From Williamsia maris (lineage in GTDB: Bacteria > Actinomycetota > Actinomycetes > Mycobacteriales > Mycobacteriaceae), in the NCBI RefSeq assembly GCF_024171815.1, contig NZ_JAMTCJ010000001.1:248001-312000 (forward strand): a stretch of DNA of 64,000 bases. The letters are read 5' to 3'. The notes beneath the pieces were generated by a model. The model was not told the origin of the DNA, searched no databases, and was given only the letters and a program-made list of their open reading frames with translations. Positions within the stretch are counted from its first letter, which is position 1, and each line of letters opens with the position of its first letter. The position numbers were made by a program, and so were the translations under genes. Below are positions 9,860-17,468 of this stretch, one piece after another.

Positions 9860-10735
9860 TCATGCGTTCGCGCGGGCGAAGAGTTCCTGGCGGGCGGCTT
9901 CCGCGTCCGCGCCGAGACCGTCGAGGGAGTTCAGACCGAGCGCGGACACCAGGCTCTTCGCGACACCACCGAGCACCGACGAGTCGGTGTACTCGCCGAG
10001 CAGCGCGTACTCCGCCTCGAAGTGCGCGATGTCGGCACCGATCGGCACCGCGGCGTTGACCGCGGCGGCGACGGCGAGCACTGTGTCGTCGGGTTCGGCG
10101 TTGAGCGCGGCGTTGAGGAACGCGATGAACGTCGCGGCCTGTACCTCGTCGTCCTTGGCGACCAGTCCGAGCATGTCGGCCAGACTCTTCGTCTCGACCT
10201 TCTCGGCGAGCGCGCGTGCGAATCGGGAGGCCTGCAGTTCGTGCACGGCCATCAGCGCCAGCGCCAACGCGGGTCCGGTGGACTCACGGAAATCGCTGTT
10301 CTGCTGATACCCCTGGGTCACGTGTGAGAGGCGCAGGGCCTCGAGTCCCTCGGGGTCGATCTGGCGGGTCACCACGAGGTGGTCGCGTAGAGCGATCGAG
10401 TGGCGGTTGTCCTCCGCGGTCCAGCGGCCGACCAGATCACGCCATTCCGAGAACGGCGGGAAGTGCAGCCCGAGCACACGGTGGAACGACGGCAGGTTCT
10501 CCTTCGTGAGGAGCAACGCGAGAACGGCCGCACGGACCTCTGCCGACATCGTCGATTCGGCGGCGTCCCAGTCAGATCCGCCCAGGAACGCGAAGTTGCG
10601 TCCCTCGTCCCACGGCACCAGGTCGTGTGGATTCCAGGTGATGGAATCCTCCTCGTGCGCGGCGGCGATCTCCGGCAGAGCCTTCTCCAGAGCCAGGATC
10701 AGGTCGTCGTAGGCAATGTTCTTCACGCGAAACAC
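9860..10735 (-). CDS. desA2: acyl-ACP desaturase family protein, DesA2-like, with degraded di-iron site
   Basis: 291 residues. Sequence around NFAFLGGSDWD and the position next to glyA match the mycobacterial DesA2 locus (Rv1094). The first half keeps iron ligands of the ferritin-like fold: E79 in TKENLPSFH and E108-D-N-R-H112. In the second half the expected ExxxxxxH and DExxH are altered: E166 is kept but Ala173 replaces His, and DDEVQA (E197, A200) replaces DExxH. The site therefore lacks two His ligands, so it may not be a functional desaturase. GTG start at 10735, with no strong ribosome site. Last gene of a DUF885-glyA-desA2 run. Confidence 0.78.
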   Translation of the reverse strand: MFRVKNIAYDDLILALEKALPEIAAAHEEDSITWNPHDLVPWDEGRNFAFLGGSDWDAAESTMSAEVRAAVLALLLTKENLPSFHRVLGLHFPPFSEWRDLVGRWTAEDNRHSIALRDHLVVTRQIDPEGLEALRLSHVTQGYQQNSDFRESTGPALALALMAVHELQASRFARALAEKVETKSLADMLGLVAKDDEVQAATFIAFLNAALNAEPDDTVLAVAAAVNAAVPIGADIAHFEAEYALLGEYTDSSVLGGVAKSLVSALGLNSLDGLGADAEAARQELFARANA

Positions 10736-15297: not shown

Positions 15298-16005
15298 GTG
15301 AGTGCGATCGTCATCGAGACGAGCAAACAGGATCTCGCAGAGCTCTCGGTGCTCGCCGATCTCCGCCCCCGGATGCGCGGGTGGATCCACCTGTACTCCG
15401 GATTCGTCGCCATCATCACCGGCGCCACGCTGGTCGCCGTCGCGTGGGCGATGACCGGTCCGGTCGCCGCGTTGGCCTGCGGCATCTACGCCCTGACGGT
15501 CTGCGGTGTGTTCGGGGTCAGCGCGACCTATCACCGCGTCCACTGGTCGACGGTGGCCGCGCGCACCTGGATGAAACGCGCCGACCACTCGATGATCTTC
15601 ATCTTCATCGCGGGCAGCTACACCCCGTTCTGCGTGCTGGCACTGTCCGCTCCCGAGAAGTGGGTCGTGCTCGCGGTGGTGTGGGCGGGTGCCCTCGCCG
15701 GGGTCACGTTGAAGATGATCTGGCCGGGCGCGCCGCGCTGGCTCGGCGTGCCGCTCTACATGATCCTGGGGTGGACGATCATCTTCGTGGCCCCCGAGCT
15801 CACCGCCCGCGCCGGCGTCGCAGTCATGGTGTTGCTCGCCGTCGGCGGCCTGTTCTACACGGTGGGCGCCGTCCTCTACGCGACGCGGTGGCCCAACCCG
15901 TGGCCGTCGACGTTCGGCCACCACGAGTTCTTCCACACCGCGACCGTGATCGCAGCGCTGGTGCACTATGTCGCGGTCTGGCTCGTCGTCTTCACCGCCG
16001 GCTGA
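15298..16005 (+). CDS. hemolysin III family (PAQR-like) membrane protein
   Basis: About 235 residues with seven hydrophobic helices. Conserved family positions are visible: SATYHRVHW, RADHSMIFIFIAGSYTPFC and the C-terminal HEFFHTATVIAALVHY, whose histidines form the metal site of the wider PAQR/alkaline-ceramidase fold. Despite the name, a lytic role is not established for actinobacterial members; the M. tuberculosis homologue is Rv1085c. The start is uncertain: I took GTG 15298; TTG 15268, within the inverted repeat, is the alternative. Its 3' end overlaps aroG by 14 bp in convergent orientation. Confidence 0.88.
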   Translation: MSAIVIETSKQDLAELSVLADLRPRMRGWIHLYSGFVAIITGATLVAVAWAMTGPVAALACGIYALTVCGVFGVSATYHRVHWSTVAARTWMKRADHSMIFIFIAGSYTPFCVLALSAPEKWVVLAVVWAGALAGVTLKMIWPGAPRWLGVPLYMILGWTIIFVAPELTARAGVAVMVLLAVGGLFYTVGAVLYATRWPNPWPSTFGHHEFFHTATVIAALVHYVAVWLVVFTAG

Positions 16006-17080
16006 CCACCGCGCCCGCCAGCGACTCGATCACCTCGACCGTCTTGGCGAGATCCATGCACTTGTCGGTGACCGACTGCCCGTAGACCAGTGGCGCATCA
16101 CCCGGCGACCTGCCGTCGAGCGACTGGGCGCCCGCGACGAGGAAGCTCTCGAGCATCACTCCGGAGACTGCGCCCTGCCCGCGGCCGATCTGGTCGGCGA
16201 CCTCGAGGGCGACGACGGCCTGCCGCAGATGGTCCTTGTGCGAGTTGGCGTGTGAGCAGTCGATCATGAGCCGGGCGGGCAGCCCCTGCGCCGCGAGTCG
16301 GTTCGCCGCGGCGGCCACCGACTCGGCGTCGTAGTTCGTCCCGGCCCGACCGCCGCGAAGGATGACGTGACAGTCGCCGTTGCCCACGGTCGCGACGACG
16401 GCTGCCGACCCCACGTCGTCGACGCCGAAGAACACGTGTTCGGCCGCGGCCGCGCGCACCCCGTCGATCGCCGCCTGGACGTCGCCGTCGGTCCCGTTCT
16501 TAAAACCGATGGGCATGGACAGCCCCGAGGCGAGTTGGCGGTGCACCTGCGACTCCGTGGTCCGGGCGCCGATGGCACCCCACGAGACCGCGTCGGCGAT
16601 GTACTGCGGGCTGGTCGGTTCGAGGAACTCGCAACCGACAGGCAACCCGAGGTCGATGACGTCGAGCAGAAGTGCTCGCGCGGTACGCAATCCGCGCTCG
16701 ATGTCGAAGCTGCCGTCCATCCCCGGGTCGTTGATGAGACCCTTCCAGCCGACCGTGGTCCGCGGCTTCTCGAAGTAGACGCGCATGACGATCTTGAGCT
16801 GATCGACGTGCTGCTCGGCGACCACCGCGAGACGTCGGGCGTAGTCCAGGGCGGCGACGGGGTCGTGGACCGAGCAGGGGCCCACGACGACCAGGAGGCG
16901 GTCGTCTCGGCCGGCGAGGATGTCGGCGATCTCGGCGCGGTCGCGGCGCACGGCAACTGCTTGCTCGGCGGTGAGGGGTAGTTCGGTGCGTAGGGCCTCC
17001 GGCGAGGGAATGGTGCGGAAGGACCGGATTCGTCGATCCGAGGTCCCGGTGTCGGGCGCGGTGGTGAGTCCGCTGGTCAT
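15992..17080 (-). CDS. aroG: class I 3-deoxy-7-phosphoheptulonate synthase (DAHP synthase)
   Basis: 362 residues. Condenses phosphoenolpyruvate with erythrose-4-phosphate, the entry step of the shikimate pathway. Class I blocks are clear: VVVGPCSVHDP, MRVYFEKPRTTVGWKGLINDP, GCEFLEP, FKNGTDG, HVILRGG and DCSHANS. The ATG at 17080 has AAAGG six bases upstream. The gene sits behind a leader with a 26-codon reading frame containing clustered Tyr, Trp and Phe codons and an intrinsic terminator, suggesting transcription attenuation by aromatic amino acid supply. Confidence 0.94.
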   Translation of the reverse strand: MTSGLTTAPDTGTSDRRIRSFRTIPSPEALRTELPLTAEQAVAVRRDRAEIADILAGRDDRLLVVVGPCSVHDPVAALDYARRLAVVAEQHVDQLKIVMRVYFEKPRTTVGWKGLINDPGMDGSFDIERGLRTARALLLDVIDLGLPVGCEFLEPTSPQYIADAVSWGAIGARTTESQVHRQLASGLSMPIGFKNGTDGDVQAAIDGVRAAAAEHVFFGVDDVGSAAVVATVGNGDCHVILRGGRAGTNYDAESVAAAANRLAAQGLPARLMIDCSHANSHKDHLRQAVVALEVADQIGRGQGAVSGVMLESFLVAGAQSLDGRSPGDAPLVYGQSVTDKCMDLAKTVEVIESLAGAVVSRR

Positions 17081-17100
17081 GGCGTGCCTTTCTGGGGGAA

Positions 17101-17130
17101 GGGCACCCGTGCGGGAGTCGTCCGGTGCCC
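17101..17130 (-). promoter_or_regulatory. hairpin between the leader terminator and aroG ribosome site
   Basis: GGGCACC (17101-17107) and GGTGCCC (17124-17130) form a 7-bp stem with a 16-nt loop. On the aroG transcript it lies after the terminator U-run and before the Shine-Dalgarno, so it could protect read-through mRNA or modulate initiation. Role inferred. Confidence 0.4.
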
Positions 17131-17142
17131 TGAAAAACAGGA

Positions 17143-17168
17143 GAGCAGCGACCATGTGGTCGCTGCTC
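17143..17168 (-). terminator. intrinsic terminator (attenuator) in the aroG leader
   Basis: On the transcript, GAGCAGCGACC pairs perfectly with GGTCGCTGCTC (11-bp stem, loop ACAU), followed by UCCUGUUUUU (17132-17142). It lies between the leader reading frame (stop at 17201) and the aroG start at 17080, where termination would block aroG expression. A 9-bp complement just upstream, 17171-17179 with 17229-17237, could form a competing structure. Confidence 0.8.
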
Positions 17169-17200
17169 GGGGCTCCGGGGGGTGTGATCTCACGCGTGCG

Positions 17201-17281
17201 TCAGCGGCGCGCTCCATCGTCGACTCCACCCGGAGCCTCGATAAAACGACGCCAGCGATAGGCGCGCGTCACGGAGATCAT
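17201..17281 (-). CDS. 26-residue aromatic leader peptide for aroG attenuation
   Basis: Short reading frame ATG 17281 to TGA 17201. Residues 7-13 are AYRWRRF, putting Tyr, Trp and Phe codons within six codons; the rest is ordinary. A -10-like TACTTT (17289-17294) ends seven bases before the ATG, the geometry of a leaderless mycobacterial transcript, which would explain the lack of a ribosome site. An 11-bp intrinsic terminator follows. Established parallel: leader peptides control trp and aroF-type genes in other actinobacteria. That this one senses all three aromatic amino acids is inference. Confidence 0.65.
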   Translation of the reverse strand: MISVTRAYRWRRFIEAPGGVDDGARR

Positions 17282-17288
17282 GAGATCG

Positions 17289-17294
17289 AAAGTA
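17289..17294 (-). promoter_or_regulatory. -10 element of the aroG leader transcript
   Basis: TACTTT on the minus strand, ending seven bases before the leader ATG at 17281. This spacing matches leaderless promoters in Mycobacteriales, where the first base of the start codon is the transcription start. No good -35 is seen. Confidence 0.5.
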
Positions 17295-17468
17295 GCACCC
17301 GATCGGACGCCCGTGCCACATCCGGTTGTCGGGCACCCAAGTTCGTTAATTGTCATAAAGAACTACGGAAACGGAATTATCGCCTACTTCGTTCTCCTAA
17401 CGTCCTTTGTGGCGCCGGACCACCGGCCGCCACTCACGAGCTCTTCTCGCACATGGAGGACACCGAAG

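Follow-up and report, generated by a model that had tools for sequence, protein, structure and literature searches.

A conserved leader with aromatic codons, probably a leaderless attenuator, precedes the type I DAHP synthase gene of Williamsia maris and many related actinobacteria

DAHP synthase catalyzes the opening step in the synthesis of aromatic amino acids and controls the flow to all of them. Within the window, by which we mean the whole stretch of 64,000 nucleotides of Williamsia maris DNA that was analyzed, a preliminary description had placed a leaderless attenuator upstream of aroG, in which a ribosome stalled on any aromatic codon would alter the folding of the leader and thereby control DAHP synthase. 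Its coordinates are correct; the strand, missing there, is the minus strand for all elements of the leader (Table 1). The gene downstream is, as described, a DAHP synthase gene, and is of type I by its match to the TIGR00034 profile (E 1.2e-150; 501 bits against a cut-off of 173); the protein from a Gordonia locus (L059) is 76% identical to that of the window. Read 5' to 3', TGC-TACTTT is followed by 7 nt, the ATG, a frame of 26 codons, segment 3, a hairpin, a U5 run and the aroG start at 17080. From comparison of sequences we consider it highly probable that this arrangement is a leaderless, ribosome-mediated attenuator of the type I gene. The same genome also encodes a type II DAHP synthase, and on reading, the DNA upstream of the type II gene contains no such leader. 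That gene itself (L256, about 2895-2880, minus strand) is seemingly leaderless, with TAGGCT six bases before a GTG and no attenuator visible by reading.

Table 1. Features of the aroG leader region, in positions of the window
Feature	Position	Strand	Basis
Extended -10 (TGC + TACTTT; TACTTT at 17294-17289), 7 nt before leader ATG (17281-17279)	17289..17297	-	read in sequence
Leader ORF, 26 codons, ATG to TGA	17201..17281	-	script translation; homologous leaders
Tyr8 codon, TAT	17258..17260	-	TAT 125, TAC 3 in clusters of 126 leaders
Trp10 codon, TGG	17252..17254	-	Trp in cluster of 126/128 family loci
Phe13 codon, TTT, 8 nt before segment 1	17243..17245	-	spacing count over leaders
Helix 1:2, 5' arm (contains Phe codon and GGCTCC)	17232..17248	-	covariation; fold prediction
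Segment 1, GGCTCCGGG, partner of segment 3	17229..17237	-	helix 1:3 covariation
Helix 1:2, 3' arm (GGAGTC GA CGATGGAGCG)	17210..17227	-	covariation; fold prediction
Segment 3, CCCGGAGCC	17171..17179	-	helix 1:3 covariation
Terminator-like hairpin, 11 bp	17143..17168	-	stem-loop search; covariation
U5 run, 5 nt after hairpin	17133..17137	-	reading; stem-loop search
Segment 5, GGGCACCGG, possible second partner of segment 3	17122..17130	-	complementarity; fold prediction
Possible ribosome-site hairpin, GTGCC..GGCAC, around SD AGAAAGG (17093-17087)	17084..17108	-	predicted
Type I DAHP synthase (aroFGH), regulated gene	15992..17080	-	TIGR00034 profile match, 501 bits

Translation by script of frame 17281-17201 yields the peptide MISVTRAYRWRRFIEAPGGVDDGARR, ending at the stop codon, with AYRWRRF at residues 7-13 as first reported; its aromatic residues are Tyr8, Trp10 and Phe13. 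The -10 box does stand seven bases before the ATG, and this arrangement recurs among 128 strong loci of the family: TANNNT lies 6-8 nt before the leader start in 126 of them and exactly 7 nt before it in 101, TGn precedes the box in 87 of the 126 leaders, and a Shine-Dalgarno (SD)-like 4-mer precedes only two. The nearly constant spacing of the box and the scarcity of SD-like sequences support the earlier proposal that the transcript is leaderless.

The type I gene is present in 127/151 family genomes, and the count of 128 loci was reached after two weak matches (E about 1e-4) were dropped. From each locus 600 nt upstream were taken (one contig was shorter) and searched for ORFs, 8-45 codons long, in which aromatic residues cluster within seven positions and which are preceded by a TANNNT box. 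Codons for the pathway's end products, Tyr, Trp and Phe, occurred within 7 residues of a small ORF that also had the box 6-8 nt upstream in 126/128 loci, 123 of the 126 leaders being distinct sequences; the presence of Trp in these 126 is a requirement of the test itself. Chance origin of the leader was rejected, as none of the 128 loci had cluster and box in any of ten dinucleotide shuffles of the same stretches; shuffles scored without the box contained a Tyr, Trp and Phe cluster in a mean of 1.3/128 loci and at most in 4, and the reverse strand yielded no locus with all three aromatics and two with three of any kind. The two family misses are L005, a genus mate in which, by reading, the leader is kept and its Tyr codon is lost, and L213, the second gene copy of one genome, upstream of which no leader was found. 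At the level of the order, 20 of 28 loci examined (from 54 matches outside the family) passed with all three aromatics, five had no such ORF and three more had the ORF without a -10 box; at class level 11/17 passed with at least three aromatics, all three being present in only four, while five lacked the ORF and one more had it without the box. Among named actinobacterial loci 32/33 passed with all three aromatics, and the large group that carries the leader includes named mycobacteria.

Several forms of the peptide can be told apart. That of the window is AYWRFIEAPGG, and the second form in the family is YFWFS.PAPGG; RWYAYF.LALE.P occurs in 13 named Arthrobacter-, Microbacterium- and Brachybacterium-like loci and a few others, WRFYF or RFYF in Corynebacterium, and a Trp-less form, RRYPYFAQAPGG, in seven loci of one class-level family. 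The forms differ in their flanking residues and share the promoter spacing, the RNA segments and the aromatic cluster. A contig labelled Sporosarcina (L085) has an Arthrobacter-type leader before aroG; it may be mislabelled or misassembled. Such leaders are not confined to actinobacteria: of 47 other loci, 46 of which lie outside that group, 17 carry an ORF with three aromatics, nine have all three and four have the box as well. By reading, the leaders of four Burkholderiales aroG genes (L122, L128, L134 and L136; each lying upstream of the match at 2001) are rich in Phe, or in Phe and Tyr, and two of them (L122 and L136) also carry Trp, as YFWF. A -10-like box precedes the start by 7-8 nt in three of the four, and all four have a terminator of the CCGCCGG type that is followed by a long stretch of T and whose 5' arm is complementary to the Gly-Gly codons of the leader.

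In the clusters of the 126 family leaders Tyr is encoded by TAT 125 times and by TAC three times, as against TAT 6 and TAC 148 in 33 aroG genes; for Phe the counts are TTT 137 and TTC 52 in the clusters, against TTT 3 and TTC 296 in the genes. Tyr and Phe codon usage in four genes of the window agrees with that of the aroG genes and not with that of the leaders. By reading, the use of TTT is partly explained by its position in helix 1:2, and that of TAT, in most leaders, is not. Spacing is constrained too: segment 1 (taken as the first of four GC-rich motifs after the last Phe codon) begins exactly 8 nt after the first base of that codon in 181 of 190 leaders, of which 190 leaders 184 are distinct sequences. 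The conserved cluster, the bias to TAT and TTT, and the fixed 8-nt spacing together support the sensor role that had been assigned to these codons. Individual codons can nonetheless be lost, as with Tyr in L005, and with Trp in C. ulceribovis (L068) and in seven class-level leaders.

The RNA of the window leader is predicted to fold 5.1 standard deviations below shuffled sequences, and its helices were examined in an alignment (A1) of 48 chosen sequences of the APGG kind, comprising 39 of the 46 non-redundant window-type family leaders and nine others; the motif GGCTCCGG, present in every chosen row, served to cut the stretches. Helix 1:2 is paired in 87.4% of 768 cells, 36 of which are changed on both sides; helix 1:3 is paired in 96.6% of 524 cells with six double changes; and the terminator is paired in 95.6% of 475 cells, 8 of its 10 pairs showing changes on both sides. 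The covariation scores of helix 1:2, helix 1:3 and the terminator were each reached by 0/500 shuffles, which ignore relatedness, and pairing in the slid controls does not exceed 50, 59 and 60%, respectively; the number of pairs with double changes was matched by 21/500 shuffles for helix 1:2 and by 27/500 for helix 1:3. In the RWYAYF form (18 sequences) helix 1:3 is kept, with 97.4% of 234 cells paired and U-A in place of C-G; because shuffles often match the double-change pairs (346/500) and the further pair types (474/500), support for the helix in this group comes mainly from its high pairing relative to slid controls. Alignment across relatives, the check proposed with the preliminary description, thus finds the frame and its three kinds of aromatic codon conserved and both stems covarying, so that the stems appear to be real. 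L161 and L162, which are not in the alignment, have CCGGGGCC in segment 3; in both, the peptide and segment 1 are kept, and no clear terminator with a T run is visible.

Eight pairs between segments 1 and 3 are invariant in 48/48 aligned sequences, a degree of constancy that would also suit a conserved RNA element, riboswitch-like or protein-bound, in which the ORF is an untranslated chance frame; the LEU element of leuA is a debated case of this kind in the accessible text of PMC1262725. We regard such an origin as very improbable here. The start codon has a -10 box at constant distance, the aromatic cluster is kept while the flanks and RNA segments vary (AYWRF, YFWF, RWYAYF), and the codons of the leaders are biased. 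Nor does any Rfam family match the element: no hit reached the gathering score, only chance-level matches being returned at E up to 10, and a known, curated Rfam element was accordingly rejected as an identity for the leader. Scans of 10 and 5 leader peptides against NCBIfam and Pfam likewise recovered no known leader family. Elsewhere in the window Rfam returned an ASdes match (10344-10411, plus strand, 49.6 bits) that lies antisense within ORF 10735-9860 (minus), which we take to encode a desaturase; the match may merely mirror coding conservation.

A covariance model built from the 48 sequences found one strong site in the genome of origin (E 9e-27), the next match (E 0.05) being the same place on the other strand. 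The site lies just upstream of the gene in 8/8 genomes of the genus, including four outside the training set, one of which is that of L005, whose leader was found at E 6e-24; matches just upstream of aroFGH were also obtained in four order- or class-level genomes outside the training set (G153, G179, G188 and G258). Six of 61 genomes in the order search and four of 198 phylum genomes (E <= 0.01) had a match, tallies that do not represent prevalence because, in the order search, stricter filters were applied and YFWF leaders were missed. One phylum-level match (L270) was taken as chance: it falls within long ORFs, and the one neighbor tested is hmgA-like.

The preliminary description had reported a perfect terminator of 11 bp with a U5 tail. 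The stem at 17168-17143 does consist of 11 perfect pairs, with the loop ACAT, and is a covarying stem-loop before the structural gene; its tail is less canonical than stated, because UCCUG separates the stem from the U5 run at 17137-17133. In several relatives T follows the terminator stem directly. The complement of 9 bp adjoining the terminator is also exact (17237-17229 with 17179-17171) and ends 2 nt before the hairpin, and its putative exclusion of the terminator would involve hardly any overlap: by reading, complement and terminator overlap in the window by two bases with one mismatch, and the gap between segment 3 and the terminator is 0-4 nt in 60/60 window-type leaders (from 63; the segment-3 motif used by the script is absent from L161, L162 and L020) and 2-4 nt in 19/19 sequences measured.

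From these elements we infer the transcript start, the stalling, the direction of the switch and the block to termination by helix 1:3, as follows. Transcription would start at the leader ATG, or within a base or two of it, and a ribosome would initiate at the RNA 5' end without an SD site. Where charged tRNA-Tyr, -Phe or -Trp was scarce, the ribosome would wait at a disfavored TAT or TTT, or at TGG. If it did not wait, it would leave at the stop codon, and helix 1:2, which holds the Phe codon, would close; segment 3 would then stay unpaired and the adjoining terminator would end transcription. If it waited, the lower half of helix 1:2 would be open, and segment 1 could pair with segment 3, giving read-through. 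Our choice of helix 1:3 as the state that permits read-through rests on the retention of Tyr and Trp codons and on the complement that four Burkholderiales leaders, by reading, have in the terminator arm; we hold this direction to be about an even bet.

Ribosome-masking predictions bear on both directions. With a mask of 12 nt on the window leader, the predicted pairing of helix 1:3 is 0.0 without a ribosome, 1.0 on a Tyr or Trp stall and 0.0 on a Phe stall. Over the group (61 of 63 window-type leaders; L161 and L162 are without the script's segment-3 motif) it is predicted to rise from 0.70 without a ribosome to 0.97 on stalls at Tyr (53 leaders) and at the first Trp (56 leaders), these being the leaders with the commonest spacing. 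A Phe stall gives 0.88, 0.55 or 0.17 in the 61 leaders for masks of 9, 12 or 15 nt, and in 10 leaders with a second Trp near segment 1 a stall there abolishes the helix (at most 0.06). With the ribosome at the stop codon helix 1:3 is also favored (0.85), and the scheme therefore needs kinetics. It follows from the masking results that Phe and Tyr/Trp stalls are not equivalent in the simplest model, and that the OFF state requires helix 1:2 to close before segment 3 appears. The proposal of a three-amino-acid attenuator is supported as regards the attenuator leader; an equal effect of any aromatic stall would be conjecture. An ancient leaderless sensor of three aromatics at the entry to the shikimate pathway, spread across much of Actinomycetia and reading codon position such that stalls give graded or opposite outputs, seems to us an unlikely extension.

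The same attenuator may instead be wired the other way, which we regard as the less likely alternative: helix 1:3 would be the OFF state, a ribosome stalled at the last Phe codon would cover segment 1, and segment 3 would pair with segment 5 beyond the terminator or remain free, permitting expression, with the Tyr and Trp codons mattering little. The fixed 8-nt distance of the last Phe codon from segment 1 suits this arrangement, as does the predominance of helix 1:3 without a ribosome in the 61 leaders and, at a mean of 0.93, in 15 RWYAYF leaders; in the latter, predicted access to the aroG SD is 0.19 with no ribosome and 0.37 when one stalls at Phe, and freeing segment 3 lifts it from 0.34 to 0.48 (by more than 0.1 in 6/15). 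A review of C. glutamicum, in the part accessible, also reports control by Phe and not by Tyr (PMC11802643). Against this, opposite wiring would leave unexplained the persistence of Trp codons and of Tyr codons, the latter almost invariably TAT; helix 1:3 is predicted to be absent from the window leader when no ribosome is present, the models give no SD effect in the 61 window-type leaders, and the four Burkholderiales leaders, by reading, put the segment complement inside the terminator arm, as befits a 1:3 antiterminator.

Segment 5 may be a second partner of segment 3. The complementarity of the two has a mean of 18.0 over the 60 leaders, against 13.2 in shuffles (0/50 as high), but only 31/60 leaders beat 95% of their own shuffles, and pairing was unsupported in nine class-level loci tested; it is predicted in the fold of the window leader. 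In the RWYAYF form (alignment A2), segments 3 and 5 can, by prediction, enclose the terminator and a small CGCC..GGCG hairpin in a compact three-way junction, all seven pairs being standard in 16/18 sequences; L034 and L090 have six standard pairs. Conceivably, control could be mainly translational, with segments 3 and 5 and the SD hairpin governing how accessible the aroG ribosome site is and the terminator being constitutive or weak, though we think this rather unlikely. The complementarity of segments 3 and 5 exceeds shuffles in two groups, a GTGCC..GGCAC hairpin is predicted around the SD, SD access in 15 of the 16 RWYAYF leaders varies with segment 3 over the range given above, the T tract is interrupted in many aligned sequences by reading, and AroR is termed a translational regulator in an excerpt of PMC7356990. 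Set against these, predicted SD access is unchanged by segment 3 in the window group (0.40 vs 0.41, n = 61) and in 60 of the 61 YFWF leaders (0.45), so that a segment 3 switch of SD access was found in neither group and was partial in RWYAYF; the terminator covaries strongly; and the C. glutamicum case is presented as transcriptional in the accessible part of PMC11802643.

The nearest known system is the aroR-aroF attenuator of C. glutamicum, reportedly described by Neshat et al. in 2014, as papers that cite that work relate. In both, a small ORF with aromatic codons lies directly upstream of a DAHP synthase gene; the C. glutamicum enzyme, used as a control with TIGR00034, is of the same family; and a named Corynebacterium (L068) has RFYF, segment 1 and segment 3 by reading. 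In the accessible parts of the sources, the AroR leader peptide precedes the aroF operon and carries Phe-Tyr-Phe codons, and aroF transcription rises on Phe limitation, Tyr availability being without effect (PMC11802643); the leader is listed in 2013 (PMC4046766), attenuation of aroF by Phe is repeated (PMC11525245), and aroR has been replaced to relieve so-called translational control by Phe and Tyr (PMC7356990). The window leader, unlike aroR, has Tyr-Arg-Trp-Arg-Arg-Phe. It is probably the counterpart of the aroR attenuator; we do not treat the two as the same because Phe-Tyr-Phe is absent and the response is a predicted one.

Other actinobacterial leaders share single features with it. The trp operon attenuators of Corynebacterium and Streptomyces (Seliverstov et al., 2005; PMC1262725), in the portion available, likewise have a leader peptide, alternative hairpins, a terminator and complementary triples, but carry Trp codons only; the same portion states that no conserved RNA structure was found for actinobacterial phenylalanine and tyrosine operons. 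It also describes the LEU element of leuA, which resembles the window leader in pairing a leader ORF with strongly conserved complementary segments in actinobacteria, and differs in being a pseudoknot with its base stem on the leuA SD box, the leuA leaders being described as without other attenuator elements. Leader ORFs of Streptomyces lividans, among them trpL, are transcribed without a 5' UTR, as is predicted for the window, although none of the eight leaders listed in the accessible part of PMC8079986 precedes a DAHP synthase gene. The suggestion that a leaderless three-amino-acid sensor would be notable is weakened, as far as these partial sources go, by the published aroF attenuator and by the leaderless leaders of Streptomyces. 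Our search of the openly accessible literature returned no account of this leader outside Corynebacterium; three features go beyond the accounts that it did return, namely the Trp codon, the fixed geometry and how deeply the leader is conserved. The window element would be a variant with a Trp codon and a much wider distribution than the searchable literature shows, such that a mechanism published for one industrial species would extend to a large group of actinobacteria. It may offer a ready system for learning how one leader weighs three amino acids, and the aroG leader a target in producer strains.

A comparable arrangement stands upstream of a gene for another type of DAHP synthase (TIGR01361, above cut-off) in an order-level genome. 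At L268, about 1667-1519 on the minus strand, a seemingly leaderless GTG leader is visible by reading, with TAGCCT, 7 nt and the GTG, a peptide containing Phe-Glu-Tyr, and a GC-rich hairpin followed by TTTCGTCGTT; the covariance model of the window matches the site at E 0.005.
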